Translations under genes and position numbers: made by a program | Source: Planctomycetales bacterium 71-10 | GTDB lineage: Bacteria > Planctomycetota > Planctomycetia > Isosphaerales > Isosphaeraceae | Length of the DNA stretch: 64,000 nucleotides | Direction: 5' to 3' | NCBI GenBank assembly: GCA_001898385.1 | Contig: MKTT01000094.1 | Location: 1 to 64,000 of the forward strand | The notes under the pieces: model-generated | What the model was told of the DNA's origin: nothing | What the model saw: only the letters and a program-made list of their open reading frames with translations | Databases searched by the model: none | Shown here: in pieces, positions 11,523 to 63,660 of the stretch | How positions within the stretch are numbered: position 1 is the first letter of the stretch | Layout: each line of letters starts with the position of its first letter

Positions 11523-11570
11523 TCTCATGCGCCGGGGTGCCGAGCGATCGGAAAGCCGACACCGATCAAT

Positions 11571-11979
11571 GTCCCCTCTCCCGCCGGGAGAGGGCGGCCG
11601 CGCAGCGACGGGTGAGGGTCGCCGGAATTCGGGGGGCATAGCGGACTCGCCTGGACCGAAACAAGCCGTGGCCACCCCTCGGTTTTCCTGACCGTCGCGG
11701 ATTTTGGGGCGGCCATCGTAACGGCCTTCCCCCCCTCGCGGGGGAAGGTGGCCCGAAGGGCCGGATGAGGGGGACGACGAGCGCGGGGGCCGCCGGGATC
11801 CCAAGCCGGTCGGGCGGGCCTTCGAAGCCCGATGGAGCCCGTGCTCCGCGTCCCCCTCATCTGACGCCTTCGGCGTCTGTCTTCCCCCGCGAGGAAGGCG
11901 TCGATCGCAGCGGCCGTCCCGAGATCCGACGACCCTCACCCGGCCCTTCGGGCCGCCCTCTCCCGGCGGGAGAGGGGAC
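11571..11979. repeat. Nested palindromic repeat cluster (type B arms around a type A core)
   Basis: The gap between 11467 and 12015 holds no gene. Type B arms are in opposite orientation: 11571-11632 (GTCCCCTCTCCCGCCGGGAG then AGGGCGGCCGCGCAGCGACG) and 11926-11979 (CCGACGACCCTCACCCGGCC then CTTCGGGCCGCCCTCTCCCG...). Between them, about 11721-11906, is a copy of the element found with terminal repeats at 13.7 and 61.7 kb: left half CTTCCCCCCTCGCGGGGGAAG-like hairpin plus GGCCCGAAGGGCC, right half the inverse. The copy here lacks the recognisable CCTTTGGA-type termini. Short ORFs over this region only read through the palindromes. Confidence 0.85.
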
Positions 11980-12014
11980 CTCGAAGCGCGACGGGCTCAT
12001 CGGGTCGCCGCCTC

Positions 12015-13295
12015 TCAGGCGTAGACCCGCATCTCCTTCTCGCGGACCTGGGCCCCGTGCTCCAGCAGGAAGTTGAGGCAGCGGCGGGGGAGGCGGCACT
12101 GGATGACGACGCGGTCGTTCTCATCGTCGTAGGCGCGGTCGTGGACCTGGGCGTGCTGGGCCAGGTAGGCCAGGACGCGGCCGTCGGCGACGCTCGTCTC
12201 GACCTCGACGTCCATCGCCGATTCCAGCAGGGCCAGGCGGACGGCGTGCTCCAGGGCGTCCAGCCCCTCCCGCTTCGCGGCGCTGATGCAGACCGAGTCG
12301 CGATGGTGGGCGCGGAGGACGTCCAGATACGAGCGGTCGGGGACCTTGTCGGCCTTGTTCAGGACGAGCAGGGTCGGGTGGTCCTTCAGGCCGAGTTCCT
12401 CCAGGACCTCGACCACCGCCTGCACCTGCATCTCGGCGTCCGGGCTGGAGGCGTCGACGACGTGCAGCAGCAGGTCGGCCTGGCGGGCCTCTTCGAGCGT
12501 CGCCTTGAACGAGGCGACGAGCGAGTGCGGCAGGTCGCGGATGAACCCGACCGTGTCCGACAGCAGCGCCGCGCCGCCGCCTCGGAACCGCCACTTGCGG
12601 GTCCGGGTGTCGAGCGTGGCGAACAGCTTGTCCTCGACCAGCACCCCGGCGTCGGTCAGGGCGTTCATGAGGGTGCTCTTGCCGGCGTTGGTGTAGCCGA
12701 CGAGCGAGACCGTGGGGAAGTCCCCGCGGCCGGCGACCTCGCGCTCCTTCCTCGACTGGATCTTGCCGAGCTTCGCCTTCAGCTCCTGGATGCGGTGGAC
12801 GACCAGCCGCTTGTCCTCTTCGAGCTGCTTCTCGCCCGGGCCGCGGACGCCGATGCCCCCCTTGTAGCGCGACAGGTGGGTCCACATCCGCTTCAGCCGC
12901 GGCATGGCGTATTCGAGCTGCGCCAGCTCCACCTGGAGGTGGGCCTCGTGGCTGCTGGCGTGGACGGCGAAGATGTCGAGGATGACCTCGGTGCGGTCGA
13001 CGACCTTGACGCCCAGTTCCTTCTCCAGGTTCCGGGTCTGGCCGGGGCCCAGGTCGGAGTCGAAGACGACGACGTCGGCCTCGAACGCCTCGACCAGCCC
13101 CTTCAGCTCCTCGACCTTGCCCGAGCCGATATACGTCGCGACGTCCACCTGCTGACGCTTCTGGAGCATCGTCCCGACCGTCTCCAGGCCGGCCGTCTTG
13201 GCCAGGCCGCGGATCTCGTCCAGGGGGTCGTCGGTGTTGTACACGGCCCCCGGCAGGATGACCCCGACCAGGATCGCGCGCTCCCGATTCCCCAT
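12015..13295 (-). CDS. hflX: GTPase HflX
   Basis: HflX is a ribosome-associated GTPase that splits stalled or heat-damaged 70S ribosomes. The sequence shows the N-terminal HflX domain with GSGKVEEL near residue 57, the hallmark GPGEKQLE (152-159) preceded by RYKGGIGVR, then the G domain: P-loop GYTNAGKST (200-208), switch DTVGFIRDLPHSLVASFKAT, NKAD. The C-terminus is a short domain ending CLNFLLEHGAQV. I start at the ATG at 13295 (426 aa), where MGNRERAILVGV matches the family; a GTG at 13367 would add 24 nonconserved residues. Shine-Dalgarno signals are weak at both. Confidence 0.93.
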   Translation of the reverse strand: MGNRERAILVGVILPGAVYNTDDPLDEIRGLAKTAGLETVGTMLQKRQQVDVATYIGSGKVEELKGLVEAFEADVVVFDSDLGPGQTRNLEKELGVKVVDRTEVILDIFAVHASSHEAHLQVELAQLEYAMPRLKRMWTHLSRYKGGIGVRGPGEKQLEEDKRLVVHRIQELKAKLGKIQSRKEREVAGRGDFPTVSLVGYTNAGKSTLMNALTDAGVLVEDKLFATLDTRTRKWRFRGGGAALLSDTVGFIRDLPHSLVASFKATLEEARQADLLLHVVDASSPDAEMQVQAVVEVLEELGLKDHPTLLVLNKADKVPDRSYLDVLRAHHRDSVCISAAKREGLDALEHAVRLALLESAMDVEVETSVADGRVLAYLAQHAQVHDRAYDDENDRVVIQCRLPRRCLNFLLEHGAQVREKEMRVYA

Positions 13296-13729
13296 ACGCT
13301 CGTTTCGGCTCGTGTCGATCAAGTGGGCTGGTTCCTCGCTTCTGGCAGGATGGATCGCGGAGGGCACGCGCCCGGGCGCGGCCGGATTCTAATGAGGCCG
13401 TCGACGGGCGTCAACGACGCCCGCCTCGCTCCCCAATCCTTACTATACGTCTAGACGCCATCCGCCGCCCCGGGGTTCGCCCCCGACGCGCCGATTCCCC
13501 GGTCGACGGTCGACGCCTCGCCCGAACGGCGTCGCGTCGCGTCCTCCGCCCCCCGTGGCTCCGTTCGTCGGCCGACGACCACCCGTCATTCGACACAACC
13601 CCATTATCTACAAGCAACTTACAGACAGAACCCTGCGGGTCCGTTCGTCGATTTCGAATCAAGAATCGACACTCCTCGCGGGACACCGCCGGGATCGACG
13701 TAAGTCTTTGGAAGTGATAGTGGCCGGGC

Positions 13730-13992
13730 GTGCCTTTGGAGTTCGGCGGATCGCGTCGGAGGTTGAGGGGGCGTCATGACGGCCTTCCCCCCTCGCGGGG
13801 GAAGGTGGCCCGAAGGGCCGGATGAGGGGGAGGACGAGCGCGGAGGCCGTCGGATCTCGCATCGGGCCCGGACGGGCGGGCCTTCGAATCCCGACGGCGC
13901 CGGTGCTTCGCGTCCCCCTCATCCGACCGCTTCGCGGTCTGTCTTCCCCCGCGAGGGGGGAAGACGCTGATCGACAAATTCCAAAGGCTCAC
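13730..13992. mobile_element. MITE-like element with terminal inverted repeats, copy 1
   Basis: The intergenic region 13296-14258 has no convincing gene. Inside it is an element with terminal inverted repeats GCCTTTGGAGTTCG (13732-13745) and CAAATTCCAAAGGC (13975-13988). The body has a left half with a C5/G5 hairpin (CTTCCCCCCTCGCGGGGGAA) and GGCCCGAAGGGCC, a variable core of about 90 bases, and an inverse right half with GACCGCTTCGCGGTC and CTTCCCCCGCGAGGGGGGAA. It is alignable over its whole length with 61669-61937. No transposase is encoded, so it would be non-autonomous. No clear target-site duplication is visible. Confidence 0.8.
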
Positions 13993-14258
13993 CCCAGTGG
14001 CCCGGCCGGGCCACCGCCCTCGATCGATCCCGGTGGAGTCGAGTGCGGAGGCTCAAGGATTTCGGCGCTCGCCGCGGGTTGCGTCCCGATCTCGACGCTC
14101 CGGCGTCGACGCTCGGGCCGATGGCGGCGTCCGACCTCGAGTGACGACCGGATTGTCAAAGATCCGAGGGCGCGTGCCCCTCCATCTCGGTATGGTCGCC
14201 GGGCGGGTCGTTCGGATTTCACGATTCCAATTTTCGCGCCCGGACGGGGCCGTCGAGG

Positions 14259-15146
14259 TCAGCCCAGGACCTTGCGCGGCTGGACGAGGCGGCCGTCGGC
14301 CTCGCCGAGGGCGACGAGGCGGCCGTCGGGGGCGATGAGGGCGACCTCGGATCCGGGCGCGGCCTCGCCGGGGACCTTCCGGCCGAGGCGGACGTCGGCC
14401 AGGGCCGCGTCGTCGAGCGGGACGCGCGGCAGGTCGGCGACGGCGTCGAGGGCGGGGCGCAGCAGGCCGGCGAGCGCGTCGCGGTCGAGGTCGGAGGGCG
14501 CCAGCGCCTCCTCCTGCGTGAAGACCCCGATGCGGGTGCGGGCGAGCGTCTCCATCACGGCGCCGCAGCCCAGGGCCTCGCCCAGGTCGCGGGCGATCGA
14601 GCGGATGTAGGTCCCGCTGCCGCAGCGGACCTCGACCTCCAGCGCGGGCCAGTCGTAGGCCAGGATCCGGATCTCGTCGATGCGGACGGGCCGGGGGGCC
14701 AGGTCGACGTCCTCGCCGGCGCGGGCCAGCTCGTAGGCGCGGCGGCCGTCGACCTTCAGGGCCGAGTGCGCGGGGGGGAGCTGCATCACCTCGCCCACCA
14801 GGGCCGCCAGGGCCGCCTCGATCTCCGCGAGGGCCGGGGCGCGGGGGTCGGGCGTGGGGACGACGACGCCGTCGACGTCGTGGGTGTCGCTCCGGGCACC
14901 CAGGCGGAACGTCGAGCGATAGGTCTTCCCCATGCGCTGGACGTACTCGATGAGCCGCGTGGCGGGGCCGACGCAGATCACCAGGACCCCGGTCGCCAGC
15001 GGGTCCAGGGTGCCGGCGTGGCCGGCCTTCACCTTCCTGGGCAGCAGGCGGGCGACGCGGTTGACGACGTCGCGCGAGGTCACGCCGGGGGGCTTGTCCA
15101 GGTTCAGCACGCCTTCCCAGGTCGGGGTTCCGTCCACGTCCAGCAT
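14259..15146 (-). CDS. truB: tRNA pseudouridine(55) synthase
   Basis: TruB isomerises U55 in the T-loop of tRNAs. The protein (295 aa) carries GVLNLDKPPGVTS, the catalytic motif GHAGTLDPLATGVL with Asp48, the YRSTFRLGARSDTHD region, PPAHSALKVDGRRAYELAR and GTYIRSIARDLGEALG. A C-terminal PUA-like segment closes with ALGEADGRLVQPRKVLG. The start ATG at 15146 overlaps the stop of the upstream SGNH hydrolase by one base (TGATG), which implies translational coupling. An apparent upstream extension of 57 residues in this frame is a shadow of that gene. Confidence 0.95.
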   Translation of the reverse strand: MLDVDGTPTWEGVLNLDKPPGVTSRDVVNRVARLLPRKVKAGHAGTLDPLATGVLVICVGPATRLIEYVQRMGKTYRSTFRLGARSDTHDVDGVVVPTPDPRAPALAEIEAALAALVGEVMQLPPAHSALKVDGRRAYELARAGEDVDLAPRPVRIDEIRILAYDWPALEVEVRCGSGTYIRSIARDLGEALGCGAVMETLARTRIGVFTQEEALAPSDLDRDALAGLLRPALDAVADLPRVPLDDAALADVRLGRKVPGEAAPGSEVALIAPDGRLVALGEADGRLVQPRKVLG

Positions 15147-16825
15147 CAGTTCGGCCGTCCTTCGGGTGCGAATGAGGGGAGGCCGACGGCGTCGATCGCC
15201 GCCCCCTCCCGGAGTTTGCGGGCGGCCTCGGCGAATCGCCGGGATTCGGCGAGCCGCCGGGCCGGGTCGTGGCGATATCCCGCCACGCGACGGTCGTGGA
15301 GGCTGGTCCGCTCGCACGCCTCCGCCAGCCGTTCGGCGTCGATCCCGAAGCGGGCGACGCAGCCGGCGACGTCGGGCGCGGGGACGGCGGACCAGCCCCC
15401 TCCGAACTCCCTACGGGCTTCCAGCCCGCGTAGGACAGCGGCGGCCAAAGCGACGTAGCCGCGGAGGTTCGGATGATGCGTGTCCTCGATCACGTCGCCG
15501 CCCAGCCAGCCGGAGGGGCTGGCGGCGATCAGCTCGCGGCGGCCGTCGATCAGGATGCAGCCGGGCCGGCGGGCGGCGACGCGGCGGTAAGCCTCGCGGA
15601 ACGGGGCCTGGCAGCGGATCGGCAGGCCGTCGCGGTCGAGCGCCGCCAGGAACTCGGCCGCGGCCTCCTCCCGCTTCCCCTCCGCCCGCAGCCGCTCGCC
15701 GATCCGGTAGTGGGCCTCGGCGAAGCCCGGATGACGCCGCGCGACGTCCCGATAGACCTCCAGGGCGCGGCCGGGTTCGGTCGCCTCCAGGGCGCGGGCC
15801 CGGTGGATCGCGTCGGCGATCCGGGCGCGCTCGGCGGCGTCGACGCCCGGCTCGACGGTCGAGCGGCCGGGCTCGTAGTCGGCCTCGTTCGCCGGGGGGA
15901 TGATGAGGATCGGCCGCGCCCCGATCCGCCCGCACCAGGCGACGACGGCGTCGAGCCGGGCGGAGAAGTCGTCGAGGACCGCGGCGTACTCGGCCGGGGC
16001 GCACAGCGGCGGGTCGACGACCTGGTGGCGATCCTTCAGCGACGGCGGGGCGTCCAGGCGGTTCTTGCTGATCAGCTCGCGGACCAGGCCGACCAGCGGC
16101 GACGCCGCGTCCAGCCGGTGGACGGCCCGCGCCAGGGCCGACGACGATTCCAGGCCGACCTCATGCGCCCGGTCCTCCTCGAACCGCGCGGCGAACTCGT
16201 TGTGGCCCGAGTAGATCACGACGGCGTCCGGCCGGCGGGCGATCGCGGCCAGCTTGGCGTGCTGCTGTTCCAGCGAGTCGCCGAGCCAGGCCAGGGTCTC
16301 GACCTCGAAGCGCCGCGACGGCACGGCCTCGCCCAGCTTCCACGCGACGATCTGGCCCACGGAGACCCACGGCCGATACGGCTCGCCCAGGGCGCTCGAC
16401 CCGCCCAGGACGAGGATGCGGTAGGTGCCGGGGTCCTCGGGCGGGAACGACGTGGGGAGGGCCGGGAAGCGATGCATGCCCGCCCGGACGGCCGCCGCGC
16501 CGGCCTCCAGGGCGGCCAGGGCCGCGAGGCAGGAGAGGCCCAGCAGCGCCAGCCGGCCGAGCCGCGCCGCCGGGAGTCGCCGACGTCGGGCGCGGATCGC
16601 GGCCCAGGCCAGGAACGGGGTCGCGGCGCCTCCCAGGGCCAGGACGATGCGGACGACGATCGCGCCGGAGAGGGCCGCCTCGGCGACGGCGGCGCGGGCG
16701 GCCCGGGGCAGGATGGGCCACCACCCCGGGAGGACGACGGCGGCGACCGTCGCGAGGGCGACGGCCGTCGCGCCCGCGCCCAGAGCGATCGCGCGGCGGG
16801 CCGACGTCGTTCCGGGCATGGTCAT
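15146..16825 (-). CDS. Membrane-anchored SGNH/GDSL-like hydrolase with TPR segment
   Basis: This 559-residue protein has four hydrophobic N-terminal segments (residues about 10-33, 45-75, 88-112), then an SGNH hydrolase fold: block I ILVLGGSSALGEPY (about 137-150), block III IYSGHNEF and block V DTHHPNLRGY, giving the Ser, Asn and Asp-x-x-His of the active site. Between III and V is a TPR-like stretch (ALEVYRDVARRHPGFAEAHYR...). This arrangement is seen in exported esterase or acetyl-transfer modification enzymes. The substrate is unknown; an envelope polysaccharide is a guess. It is coupled to truB by TGATG. The long TPR insertion between catalytic blocks is the odd feature. Confidence 0.75.
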   Translation of the reverse strand: MTMPGTTSARRAIALGAGATAVALATVAAVVLPGWWPILPRAARAAVAEAALSGAIVVRIVLALGGAATPFLAWAAIRARRRRLPAARLGRLALLGLSCLAALAALEAGAAAVRAGMHRFPALPTSFPPEDPGTYRILVLGGSSALGEPYRPWVSVGQIVAWKLGEAVPSRRFEVETLAWLGDSLEQQHAKLAAIARRPDAVVIYSGHNEFAARFEEDRAHEVGLESSSALARAVHRLDAASPLVGLVRELISKNRLDAPPSLKDRHQVVDPPLCAPAEYAAVLDDFSARLDAVVAWCGRIGARPILIIPPANEADYEPGRSTVEPGVDAAERARIADAIHRARALEATEPGRALEVYRDVARRHPGFAEAHYRIGERLRAEGKREEAAAEFLAALDRDGLPIRCQAPFREAYRRVAARRPGCILIDGRRELIAASPSGWLGGDVIEDTHHPNLRGYVALAAAVLRGLEARREFGGGWSAVPAPDVAGCVARFGIDAERLAEACERTSLHDRRVAGYRHDPARRLAESRRFAEAARKLREGAAIDAVGLPSFAPEGRPN

Positions 16826-39547: not shown

Positions 39548-40096
39548 AGAGGGCTCGCGGCGGGAGCGATGATCGCCGCGGCGCCCCAGGGCGGCTCGGA
39601 CCCGCCGGGGAGACCCGGCGGTTGCGGGACGGCCTGGGGGACGTGCCGCGGAGGAAAGTCCGGACTCCGCAGGGTGCGGTGGTGGGTAACGCCCACCGTC
39701 CGGCGTTCGCGCGCCGGATAGGGAAAGTGCCACAGAAAGCAAACCGCCTCGGCGGCGGGGCCTCGGCCCCAACGTCGCGGTAAGGGTGAAACGGTGAGGT
39801 AAGAGCTCACCAGCAGGCCGGGCGACCGGCCTGGCTCGGCAAACCCCACCGGGAGCAAGACCAAATAGGGGAGCAGCGGGAGACAGCGTCGGCGAGCGGG
39901 ATCCGGGCGACCGGGCCTCGCGAACCTTCGTCCCGCACGGGCCGGCCCGGCCCGTCATCGACTCCCGGGTAGGTCGCTCGAGGCGTCGGGAGACCGACGT
40001 CCCAGAGAAATGATCATCCGAGGCCGGACGGGACGGTCCCCGTCCCCCCGACCTCGACAGAATCCGGCTTACGCCGCCCGCCGCGACGCCCTCTCA
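39548..40096 (+). ncRNA. rnpB: RNase P RNA (type A)
   Basis: RNase P RNA is the catalytic subunit that removes 5' leaders from pre-tRNAs. Diagnostic conserved blocks occur in order: GGAGGAAAGTCCGGACTCC (P4 and CR-I), ATAGGGAAAGTGCCACAGAAA, GGTAAGGGTGAAACGGTGAGG then TAAGAGCTCACCAGC, CAAACCCCACCGGGAGCAAG then ACCAAATAG, CCAGAGAAATGATCATCC and the 3' ACAGAATCCGGCTTA. Long-range pairings can be traced: P1 between 39549-39564 and 40077-40093 (GAGGGC and GCCCTC ends), and P2 GATGATC (39568-39574) with GATCATC near 40011-40017. P18 is an extended hairpin at about 40019-40056. At about 550 nt it is longer than the usual 380-440. No ORF-based annotation covers it. Confidence 0.95.
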
Positions 40097-59740: not shown

Positions 59741-61654
59741 ATGCTGGCCGTTCGATCCCTGCTGATGGGCGTGCTCTGGGCCTCCGCCTGGCCGCTGTAC
59801 CTGGCCGCGATCGCGCAGGTCGCGCGGCTCGGCCCGTGGCCGAAGGCGACCGGGGCCCTGGCCGCCACCGTGCTGAACGCCCTGGCCATCGGCCTGTTCG
59901 CCCGGGTGCTGGGCGCCTGGTTCTTCAAGCCGGGGGGCTGGTGCGAGCGCTACCTCGTCACGCCGCCGAGCGTCACGCGGCAGTTCCGCTACGCGGGGCG
60001 GCTGCTGATCGTGGCGGCGATGGCCCTGCTGGTGCCGATCCACCTGTTCGCCAACGGCGAGATCTCCCACCAGGGGACCGCCGTGACGGCCCCGGCGCTG
60101 TCGCGGTTCCTGTTCCTGGCGTTCGAGCTGATCGTGCTGGCGTCGCTGGCCTACCACCTGCGGCCGGGCTCGCCGCTGATGACCTGGATCAACCCCGACG
60201 TCCCGACCGCGGGCGAGCCCGAGCCGGGCGCCGAGGGGGCCGCCGCGGCGCCGGTGGTGGTGGTCTCGCGGCAGCCGTTCGGCTCGGTGGGCGAGGCGTG
60301 GGTGACGTGGTGCTGCCGCCGGGCGCGGATGATCGCCCGGCTGATGGTGGCCTTCGGCGTGGTCGTGGTGATCCTGGACGTGCGCGGCTACGGCTTCGCG
60401 TCCTCGCGGCTGGCGATGGGGGGCGTGGAGAGCCTGGGGGTCTTCGCGCTGTCGTGGGCCATCCACCGGGTCGTCGCCCGCCTGATCGCCTGGCGGCTGC
60501 GGGCCGACGCGCGAACGAACAGGCTCTGGGCCTCGGCCGCCTCGCTCTGGTCGGCCCGCGCCCGGGGCGCGCACGCCGCCGCAACCGCCCCCGGCGCGAA
60601 GCCCGCCGAGCCGGTCGACTGGACCCTCCGCGCCTCGCGGGCGTCCACGTTCACGATCGTCCTGCTGGCCGTGGCGATGCTCGGCTGGATCTGGGGGATC
60701 GACCCGGCGCTGCTGGACTTCCTGTCCAAGCAGCCGCTCCCGTGGAAGGCGGCCGGCGGCCGGCAGGTCGTGCTGGGGGACGTGGCCCTCTCGCTCTCCG
60801 CGGCCGTCACGGGCGTCCTCTCGTGGCGGTTCATGCCGGCGATCCTGGCCTTCGCGCTGTTCCGCCGCCTCCCCGAGGACCCGGGCGTCCGCTACGCGAT
60901 CGTCTCGCTCGCCCGCTACGCCGCCATGGCCCTGGCCGTCACGGTCGCCCTCCAGGCGATCCACTTCGACCTGTCGCAGATCAGCTTCCTGCTGGCGGCG
61001 CTGGGCGTCGGCCTGGGCTTCGGCCTCCAGGAAGTCGTCTCCAACTTCATCTGCGGCCTGATCCTGCTGCTGGAGCGGCCGATCCGCATCGGCGACACGG
61101 TCTCCGTCGGCGGGACGACCGGCAAGGTCGACCGCATCAACACCCGCGCCACCACGATCATCAACGGCGACAACCAGTGCATGATCGTCCCCAACCGCGA
61201 GCTGATCACCGGCAAGATCGTGAACTGGACGCACAAGGACAAGATCATGCGCGTGGCGATCCGGGTCGTCGTGGCGCACGACTCGGACGTGGACGGGGTG
61301 ACGTCGCTGCTGCTGACGATCGCCAAGTCCGACTTCGACGTCCTCTCCCGCCCCGCCCCCTCGGCCGCGCTGGAGGAGCTGGGCGAGTCGGGGATGATCT
61401 TCGGGATGTCGGTCTTCGTGGCCGACCCGGGCCTGATGGGCGGGGCCAAGCACCGGATCTGCAAGGCGATCCGCGAGCGGTTCGCGATGGCGGGGATCGC
61501 GCTGGCCAGCCCGATGCGCGAGATCACGCTGGCCGGCCTGCCCGAAGAGCTGACGCGGCTGATCGGCGACCGCCGGATCCGCGGCGACGAGGCCGAATCG
61601 TCGCCCCGCGGCCCGCATCAGGCCGTCGAGTCGCGGGCGGCCGCCGGGGGCTGA
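59741..61654 (+). CDS. MscS-family mechanosensitive channel (pore half)
   Basis: A 637-residue integral membrane protein with about eight helices before the MscS core. The pore helix and channel domain are clear: LLAALGVGLGFGLQEVVSNF then ICGLILLLERPIRIGDTVSV and GTTGKVDRINTRATTIINGD, then the cytoplasmic cage (NRELITGKIVNWTHKDKIMR) and a C-terminal alpha/beta part. It gates efflux of solutes when membrane tension rises on hypo-osmotic shock. The upstream gene supplies the periplasmic part that in E. coli MscK is fused. Its stop is 15 bases before a MITE-like element. Confidence 0.9.
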   Translation: MLAVRSLLMGVLWASAWPLYLAAIAQVARLGPWPKATGALAATVLNALAIGLFARVLGAWFFKPGGWCERYLVTPPSVTRQFRYAGRLLIVAAMALLVPIHLFANGEISHQGTAVTAPALSRFLFLAFELIVLASLAYHLRPGSPLMTWINPDVPTAGEPEPGAEGAAAAPVVVVSRQPFGSVGEAWVTWCCRRARMIARLMVAFGVVVVILDVRGYGFASSRLAMGGVESLGVFALSWAIHRVVARLIAWRLRADARTNRLWASAASLWSARARGAHAAATAPGAKPAEPVDWTLRASRASTFTIVLLAVAMLGWIWGIDPALLDFLSKQPLPWKAAGGRQVVLGDVALSLSAAVTGVLSWRFMPAILAFALFRRLPEDPGVRYAIVSLARYAAMALAVTVALQAIHFDLSQISFLLAALGVGLGFGLQEVVSNFICGLILLLERPIRIGDTVSVGGTTGKVDRINTRATTIINGDNQCMIVPNRELITGKIVNWTHKDKIMRVAIRVVVAHDSDVDGVTSLLLTIAKSDFDVLSRPAPSAALEELGESGMIFGMSVFVADPGLMGGAKHRICKAIRERFAMAGIALASPMREITLAGLPEELTRLIGDRRIRGDEAESSPRGPHQAVESRAAAGG

Positions 61655-61668
61655 CGCGGCCAGCCCGT

Positions 61669-61937
61669 GTGTGCCTTTGGAATTTGGCGGATCGCGTCGG
61701 AGGTTGAGAGGCCATCATGACGGCCTTCCCCCCTGGCGGGGGAAGGTGGCCCGCAGGGCCGGATGAGGGGGAGGACGAGCACTATGGCTGTCGGGATCCC
61801 GAGCCGGTCGGACGGGCCTTCTCGCCTCCCGACGACATCCGTGCTTTGCGTCCCCCTCATCTGACCGCTTCGCGGTCTGTCTTCCCCCGCGAGGGGGGAA
61901 GACGTCGAACGCCGACCGCCGAATTCCAAAGGCACAC
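61669..61937. mobile_element. MITE-like element with terminal inverted repeats, copy 2
   Basis: Terminal inverted repeats of 22 bp with one mismatch are at 61669-61690 (GTGTGCCTTTGGAATTTGGC then GG) and 61916-61937. The body matches the 13.7 kb copy: CTTCCCCCCTGGCGGGGGAA and GGCCCGCAGGGCC at the left, and GACCGCTTCGCGGTC plus CTTCCCCCGCGAGGGGGGAA at the right, with a divergent core of about 90 bases. It exactly fills the gap between the convergent channel and carboxypeptidase genes (15 and 16 bases from their stops). No coding capacity for a transposase. Confidence 0.85.
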
Positions 61938-61953
61938 CCGCCGGCCCGGCCGG

Positions 61954-63660
61954 TCACTTGCCGCCGAGGGGGCGGTCGGCCGGCGGGGGGGCGGGGCCGT
62001 CGCCCAGGTAGAACGCCTCGCAGAGCCGGCCCAGGAGCTTGCCGGCGTCGGCCGTGGTGGGGACCTTGCCCCCCTCCCGGGCGTCCAGGATCACGCCGTT
62101 GAGGAAGAAGGCGATGACCAGGGGCCGGCCGGCGGCCGTCTCCATGTAGCCGGCGAGGCCCTTGGCGGTGAGGAGCCGCCGGCCGATCAGGGCGTCGGAG
62201 ACGAACATGGTCCCCGTCTTGGCCCGGGCGTGGCCGCGGGCCGGGCTGTCCTCGGCGACGGCCTTGGCGAGCGTGCCGTCGCGGCCGAGGATCGGCAGCG
62301 CGGCGTCGTAGGAGGCGAAGTCGGGGCGGGCGGCCATGGCGCGCAGCAGCGTCGCCGCGGCGCGAGGGGTGGCCATGTCGGCCCACTCGCCCCCGGCCCC
62401 GCCGCCGAACGAGACCGTCAGCGGGTCGAGGCCGAGCTCCTTGAGGATCTCCCCCTCGCGTCTCAGGCCGGCGGCGAGGGTGCGCTCCCCCTTCTTCGCC
62501 GCCAGGAGCATCGGCAGGGTGCTGGCGTGGAGGTTGTGGCTGACCTTGAGGATGACGCGGGCGAACTCCCGGAACGGCGGCGAGGTGTACTCGGCCACCT
62601 TGGGGAGGCCGGAGACGGCCGACCGCGGCGGCAGATCGGCCTCGGGGTTGTCGGCCAGGGGGGACGCCTCGACCCGGACGCCGCGGCGGCCGAGGGCCTC
62701 GATCATCAGCGTGCGCGCGAACGAGGCGGGGTCGTCGACCTCGACCGTCTCCACGAACGACTCGGACCCGGCCGGGACGAGCCCCCGGACCTCCAGCCGG
62801 CGGGGGCCGACGAGCCGGACGCGGACCTTCGGCTCGCCCTCGGCCGCGGTCTCCACCCGGGCGTCGACGGCCAGGTACTGCGTCGGCGGCGAGATCGTCA
62901 CGGAGGCCGGATCGCCCGCCGCCTTGCCGGGCGCGACGACCACGTCGACGAGGTTGTCGTTGATCATGATCGGCGAGACCCTCTCCGGCCCGCTCCCCGA
63001 GCTGGGGGCCCGGTCGAAGAGGCGGGCGTCGACGACGACCTCGCCGGTGATCTTCCGGACGCCGGCCGCCTGGACCTCGCGGGCCAGGTGGTCCAGGCCG
63101 GCGAGCGGGTCGCACTTCAGCAGGACCTCGGACGCCTTGCCGCCGGAGGTGTAGATGTGGTCCTCGTCGGCGAACTGGAGCTTGCCGTCGGGGCCGGTGC
63201 GCCCGCCCATCGCCGGGTCTCCCTGCGCGACGAGGATGAGGTCGCCGTTGAGCGTCCCGCGGTCGTCGACCGCCCCCCGACGGACCAGGGGCGTCTGGAA
63301 GCGGTGGTCGGCCCCCAGGTCGACCATCGCGGCGGCCGTGGAGAAGAGCTTGGCGACCGAGGCGGTCGAGAACAGCTCGTCGGCGTTCTTCTCGTAGACC
63401 GGCTCGCCCGTCCTGGCGTCGACGACCAGGATCCCCCAGTGGGCGTTGCGGAACGTAGGGTCGTCGAGCACGGCCTTGACCCGGTCGGGCAGCGTCGTCG
63501 CCGCGGCCCCGGCCGGCTCCGCGCCCGCCGGGACCGGCGCCTGGCCCCGCGCCGAGGCCGATGCGGGGCCCGTCGCGACGGCCGCCGCGACGGCGAGCGC
63601 GCCGCAACCCCGAACCCACCCGGAACGCCCGCCGATCGCTCCCAATCCGGCCTGCTGCAT
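61954..63660 (-). CDS. dacB: D-alanyl-D-alanine carboxypeptidase / endopeptidase (S13, PBP4-like)
   Basis: A 568-residue exported penicillin-binding protein with signal region WVRGCGALAVAAAVATGPAS. S13 motifs: SxxK as SVAK (STASVAKLFSTAA), SxN as SHN (VSHNLHASTLP) and KTG (AKTGTMFVSD), with the inserted domain between (GDLILVAQGDPAM, VVVDARLFDRAP). It trims or opens peptidoglycan cross-links. The ATG at 63660 precedes the signal peptide; an upstream frame is low complexity. It converges on the channel gene across a MITE. Confidence 0.9.
   Translation of the reverse strand: MQQAGLGAIGGRSGWVRGCGALAVAAAVATGPASASARGQAPVPAGAEPAGAAATTLPDRVKAVLDDPTFRNAHWGILVVDARTGEPVYEKNADELFSTASVAKLFSTAAAMVDLGADHRFQTPLVRRGAVDDRGTLNGDLILVAQGDPAMGGRTGPDGKLQFADEDHIYTSGGKASEVLLKCDPLAGLDHLAREVQAAGVRKITGEVVVDARLFDRAPSSGSGPERVSPIMINDNLVDVVVAPGKAAGDPASVTISPPTQYLAVDARVETAAEGEPKVRVRLVGPRRLEVRGLVPAGSESFVETVEVDDPASFARTLMIEALGRRGVRVEASPLADNPEADLPPRSAVSGLPKVAEYTSPPFREFARVILKVSHNLHASTLPMLLAAKKGERTLAAGLRREGEILKELGLDPLTVSFGGGAGGEWADMATPRAAATLLRAMAARPDFASYDAALPILGRDGTLAKAVAEDSPARGHARAKTGTMFVSDALIGRRLLTAKGLAGYMETAAGRPLVIAFFLNGVILDAREGGKVPTTADAGKLLGRLCEAFYLGDGPAPPPADRPLGGK

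Follow-up and report, generated by a model that had tools for sequence, protein, structure and literature searches.

Insertion sequences (ISs) of the ISKra4 family are expected, following ISfinder, to end in GGG and to duplicate 8–9 bp of their target. In the scheme of Guerillot et al. (2014, PMC3942029) the family is p-MULT 4, and promoter targeting was found only in its ISKra4 group; ISs of this group with near-perfect inverted repeats have promoters on both sides, and the ISMich2 group is the one with a split-frame transposase. TnGBS and related ISs (TnGBS / ISLre2 elements, p-MULT 3) insert 15–17 bp upstream of the −35 region (PMC3942029). Among short gene-less repeats, Correia/NEMIS, Nezha and ERIC are bounded by terminal inverted repeats (TIRs), structured and intergenic (lists in PMC3733652), and REP/BIME elements and CGTC-tagged palindromes are built of palindromic units in tens to hundreds of copies (PMC3733652).

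Here we describe a planctomycete repeat that combines traits of these systems. We analysed a window of 64,000 nucleotides, part of contig C94 in the 7.7-Mb draft genome (158 contigs) of Planctomycetales bacterium 71-10. The evidence supports the presence of a gene-less mobile element of about 270 bases with MITE character. With high confidence we read its roughly 50 genomic copies as DDE-type MITEs that would be moved in trans by an ISKra4-family transposase and inserted upstream of promoters, with a REP-like interior that was captured and then amplified. Near-perfect ends with GGG, a target-site duplication (TSD) in the 8–9 bp range and a position ahead of promoters that either end may face are shared with the ISKra4 family, and the transposase of the candidate partner matches NF033572 with a score slightly under the cut-off; unlike members of that family, the MITE carries no transposase. 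The two-frame (−1) gene of the candidate partner resembles the ISMich2 group, for which PMC3942029 records no promoter targeting. TnGBS and ISLre2 likewise insert upstream of the −35 box, but they use another transposase family and insert mostly in one orientation, whereas the MITE lies about equally in both. From Correia/NEMIS, Nezha and ERIC the element differs in its ends, its probable parent transposase, its promoter-distance bias and a REP-like core that is independently genus-wide. This core, like REP/BIME, is an inverted palindromic pair present in tens to hundreds of copies, but each of its units is about 60 nt long and forms two hairpins, and in the source species the pair appears to have been captured between DDE-transposon ends.

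Two copies with both ends lie in the window. Copy 1 (269 bp, 13726–13994, plus strand; profile match E 1.2e-78) is located between hflX (12015–13367) and truB (14259–15317), both on the minus strand and named from NCBIfam. Its left TIR spans 13726–13748 on the plus strand (TIR pattern and alignment) and its right TIR 13972–13994 on the minus strand (TIR pattern, end count and alignment), and it is flanked by the 8-bp TSDs TAGTGGCC (13718–13725) and CAGTGGCC (13995–14002), which match at 7 of 8 positions. Copy 2 (273 bp, 61667–61939, plus strand; E 4.1e-83) sits between the stop codons of two convergent genes, for an MscS-like channel (ending at 61654) and a PBP4-like carboxypeptidase (ending at 61954). 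Its TIRs, both recovered by pattern and alignment, occupy 61667–61689 (plus) and 61917–61939 (minus), and its TSDs, again matching at 7 of 8 positions, are GCCAGCCC (61659–61666) and GCCGGCCC (61940–61947). The cores, REP-like inverted pairs on the plus strand that are present genus-wide without TIRs, extend over 13779–13966 and 61720–61905. In copy 1 the pair includes 53-nt inverted arms at 13784–13836 and 13911–13963, and RNA folds reach z-scores of −8.8 and −12.4.

The limits of both copies are fixed by the alignment of 45 copies together with the TSDs. The earlier note, written from the letters of the window, had located these copies correctly at 13730–13992 and 61669–61937, a few bases short of their true extents; the TIRs it gave as 14 and 22 bp are real but are in both cases a 23-bp TIR trimmed by 2–4 bases, and the inverse hairpin halves it described are present. 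The TIR pattern occurs four times in the window, against 0.14 matches expected by chance. The note read these copies as a non-autonomous transposable element with its transposase elsewhere in the genome, a reading that the whole-genome data bear out, as described below; the separate, older REP-like core and the targeting of sites upstream of promoters escaped it.

An initial whole-genome search gave 40 scored copies, and whole-genome recovery followed by alignment gave 45 non-identical copies with both ends, 261–293 bp long. The aligned copies start with GGG and finish with CCC (GGGTGTGCCTTTGGAATTTGGCG ... CGCCAAATTCCAAAGGCACACCC), and the alignment defines a 23-bp TIR, GGGTGTGCCTTTGGAATTTGGCG. 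The genome-wide search for the terminal repeat that the earlier note had called for finds 55 forward and 55 reverse ends, compared with 1 and 5 for the reversed pattern. These copies are short, number at least 45, have matching TIRs and lack a transposase gene, which are the marks of a MITE. Target duplication is confined to a single length: across the 45 copies, identity between the 8-bp flanks is 0.70, where shuffled pairs of flanks give 0.34 (at most 0.41 over 500 shuffles), while at lengths of 3–7 and 9–14 bp it stays at 0.29–0.38, inside the shuffle range even for the biggest excess, at length 5 (0.38 against 0.33). The duplication is perfect in 12 copies and matches at 7 or more of 8 positions in 23 of 45. 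The flanks vary from copy to copy, so that the copies are not parts of longer identical duplications, which the note had named as a contrary outcome along with a lack of empty sites.

Such an empty site is found for copy 2. In the congener G004, the flanking genes adjoin as convergent neighbours, and both the element and a second TSD are missing there. For copy 1 the flanking genes are conserved and the intergenic region is not, so the site gives no base-level comparison, and what can be inferred is no more than the element's absence from the congener G002. Among 44 other genomes of the family (5 of the genus and 39 more), the TIR yields only isolated matches with one mismatch, in five genomes. 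Since the TIR is otherwise missing from these 44 genomes, the TIR-bearing form is particular to the source species within the sampled set. Across 84,980 species the exact TIR had no match; outside the source genome its degenerate form matched only the distant planctomycete MAG UBA4732, twice.

The left and right ends of one copy share variants more often than in shuffles (TIR columns 12, 15 and 19; 45 copies). Over four variable columns, own-end agreement is 127/180, compared with 113/180 for the ends of the nearest relative and 99 (sd 5) at random, a comparison that serves as a lead only, the columns having been picked beforehand. Intra-element conversion, selection on structure or subfamilies could each account for this agreement.

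The core behaves differently from the ends. It covers element positions 52–236 as paired, inverted, palindrome-rich halves, and core pairs without TIR ends are found in all five congeners, in which the half motif has 36–173 matches per genome (control 0). The source genome holds 201 half-motif matches, so most of its palindromes lie outside MITEs. Because the core is common throughout the genus without those ends, it is older than its TIR setting; judged by this distribution, the hairpin halves are a genus-wide REP-like inverted pair and not derived from a transposon. One core hairpin carries compensatory changes, from CG to GC in 11 of 40 copies and from GC to CG in 19 of 40. Apart from half-core matches, the plasmid collection contains just one full-core match, of 172 bp, on a congener's plasmid, NZ_CP011274.1 (Planctomyces sp. 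SH-PL62), which has the same coordinates in G002. The half unit (e.g. 13784–13832) is also about 84–92% identical over some 50 bases to repeats on plasmids of Shinella and Rhizobium, hosts far from the Planctomycetes.

A third copy in the window (11683–11908, plus strand; nhmmer E 7.3e-57, profile positions 15–246 of 273) consists of the core and a remnant of the left arm, its ends being lost. It keeps GGCCATCGTAACGG, which intact copies (L010, for example) have unchanged in their left arm; this is a left-arm sequence of the MITE and is not in the core-only copies inspected. Because part of the left arm is retained despite the lack of clear ends, the copy is probably a decayed MITE. The earlier note, which placed it near 11721–11906, saw its halves and the lack of visible termini correctly. 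A second inverted palindrome pair (CCCTCTCCCGCCGGGAGAGGG...; 11566–11599 and 11951–11984, 94% complementary) flanks this copy, giving two different REP-like pairs, one inside the other.

A full-length relative with matching ends, which the note had suggested looking for, is present. The NF033572 profile detects one full-length element in the source genome (L154, contig C87) and one in G004 (L155). The source element (L154:1423–2832, 1410 bp) has the ends GGGTGCCCCTTTAGAAYTTGGC, written as the pair GGGTGCCCCTTTAGAACTTGGC / GGGTGCCCCTTTAGAATTTGGC, and an exact 8-bp TSD, CCGCGGCC, on both sides; its sister in G004 (1420 bp; 86% identity over 1352 bp) has the ends GGGTGTGCCTTCGGAAGTTGGC / GGGTGTGCCTTTAGAAATTGGC and likewise an exact duplication, GGTCGGAA. 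An inverted-repeat and duplication search made without the TIR sequence chose the same ends. Compared with the MITE consensus, the right end of L154 matches at 21 of 24 positions and the left end at 19 of 24; with the MITE's own four ends excepted, the other 24-mers of the window reach at most 16. In the comparison of the IS with the MITE, no clear shared sequence was seen beyond the ends.

In both genomes the transposase is split between ORF1 (90 aa) and an ORF2 that lies in the −1 frame, with an overlap around CCCC(C/A)AAAAC. This is the frame layout of the ISMich2 group, with two ORFs in the −1 sense, and the frameshift itself is predicted. The NCBIfam ISKra4 transposase model matches L154 with E 1e-57 for the fused frames and 1e-55 for the second ORF alone, covering profile positions 25–412 of 422 at 184–196 bits (curated cut-off 205; next family 45 bits). 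As the score falls slightly below the cut-off, we name the partner only as a putative ISKra4-family IS and give no subgroup. Its GGGTG ends and exact 8-bp duplications agree with the family. With matching ends and equal TSD length in the same genome, L154 is the probable autonomous partner of the MITE. Because it is the only recognisable full-length copy in the source genome and its left end is off by 5 of 24 positions, the amplification may really have been driven by a cousin of L154. A pattern search of the source genome found no full-length element with ends identical to those of the MITE. One long pair with TIR ends, C83:46180–47701, was considered as the parent element and rejected, being a MITE copy (L051:1177–2706, G000:C83:46176–47705) split by an IS110-family element (PF01548, NF033542). 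The latter interrupts the hairpin of the core at GGATGAG^GGGGAC; REP sequences are known targets of IS110-family elements (PMC1525189, PMC11208160).

We then turn to the position of the copies relative to promoters. Sites resembling TTGACA / 15–19 / TATAAT were scored outward from every MITE end with a simple consensus, not with the software of PMC3942029. At a score of at least 9, a −35 box starts 13–19 bp outside an end in 31 of 45 copies (control mean 1.4, maximum 4); counted over 12–19 bp, the copies number 31 of 45 at this score and 20 of 45 at a score of at least 10. At the latter threshold, the 5-bp bin 16–20 bp from the junction collects 22 matches and the other bins 0–3; this peak at one position argues against a general intergenic bias. 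The promoter lies on the left in 17 cases and on the right in 15, with only one copy having both. By the same scoring, the window copies at 13726 and 61667 have no promoter at the expected distance. The G004 IS also has a TTGACA box about 17 bp beyond its end, and the IS of the source genome a weaker site. The promoter-targeting ISKra4 group is characterised by insertion 13–17 bp from a sigma-A promoter at more than 20% of sites, a share that the MITE copies exceed at both scores. Regions upstream of promoters are the target of MITE insertion.

In the mechanism that we propose, the 23-bp MITE ends would be bound by a transposase of the ISKra4 family (Mutator-like, p-MULT 4). The enzyme would cut out or copy the MITE and integrate it with a stagger of 8 bp. 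It would prefer sites that place one end about 13–19 bp upstream of the −35 box in a promoter of the sigma-70 type, and because the two ends are nearly identical, either may face the promoter. The interior is no shortened transposon: genus-wide REP-like inverted palindromes would have landed between transposon ends, and the captured pair would have been amplified along with them. We infer from sequence comparison both mobilisation in trans by the L154 transposase and the manner of core capture, as well as any effect on the neighbouring promoter.

This reading has to be weighed against others. RAYT/IS200-type transposition, by a tyrosine transposase, leaves no target duplication. If the whole element were a REP/BIME repeat spread in this way, the TIRs would be its outer palindrome, and the occurrence of the core pair without ends in five congeners and in the source genome would fit. 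The clear 8-bp TSDs contradict such an origin for the TIR-bearing element, its ends match a DDE-type IS with an 8-bp duplication of its own, and these ends, unlike the core, are limited to the source species within the family. We regard this explanation as highly improbable, a purely REP-type account of the TIR-bearing element being ruled out by the duplications, while the core alone may have spread by RAYT/IS200-type transposition. The element might also be kept mainly as a regulatory structure, an insulator or RNA hairpin beside promoters, and not as a transposon. Its very stable fold, the compensatory core changes, the agreement of its ends above both shuffles and nearest neighbours, and its adjoining promoters would all suit such a role, but the promoter distance equals the known insertion specificity of these transposases, the window copies are not beside promoters, and covariation can be mimicked by related copies; we therefore find a regulatory role improbable.

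A closer question is which transposase was at work. The MITE could owe its amplification to a different ISKra4-family transposase from that of C87, now lost or lying in assembly gaps, for instance one like the G004 copy, whose IS ends match the MITE consensus at 20 of 22 positions against 18–19 of 22 for the source genome's own IS. The assembly is a draft of 158 contigs and holds a second ISKra4 fragment at C138:6719–6838. Against this, the C87 element is full length, with an exact TSD and a right end matching at 21 of 24 positions, and we consider another source possible but doubtful.

A comparable case is found in UBA4732, which has about 15–30 ends of the MITE class. At loci L134–L153, ends of the same class (GGGTGTGCCTCTCGATTTAGGC) surround at least four unrelated palindromic interiors; the complete elements are short and palindromic, with interiors unrelated to that of the window MITE. 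The few copies available show possible 8–9 bp duplications and, at several junctions, strong promoters with a −35 start 15–19 bp outside. No ends resembling its MITEs were found at this genome's own ISKra4-type genes. UBA4732 appears to represent a parallel MITE radiation. We offer tentatively the wider proposal that ISKra4-type ends repeatedly capture host-specific REP-like palindromes, here and, with different palindromes, in UBA4732, and deliver folded cassettes to a fixed position upstream of promoters, the two ends of each copy being kept matched by selection or repair. If this is true, the transposase would spread structured sequence through the genome and place it at promoters. The recurrent association of transposon ends and REP-like palindromes offers a concrete way for such palindromes to spread.

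No description of an ISKra4-driven MITE was found in the open-access literature searched, judged by title and abstract; each ingredient is already known, and the combination appears unreported in that literature. By its ends, duplication length and insertion site, an anonymous repeat of a planctomycete is linked with one particular family of transposases, and the promoter-upstream targeting of ISKra4 and TnGBS elements becomes visible in a MITE. Natural insertions at a set distance from promoters number in the dozens and make the transcriptional effect directly testable. The window also contains a bacterial RNase P class A RNA at 39616–40087 (Rfam RF00010, 198 bits), the sole match of an Rfam scan over its length.
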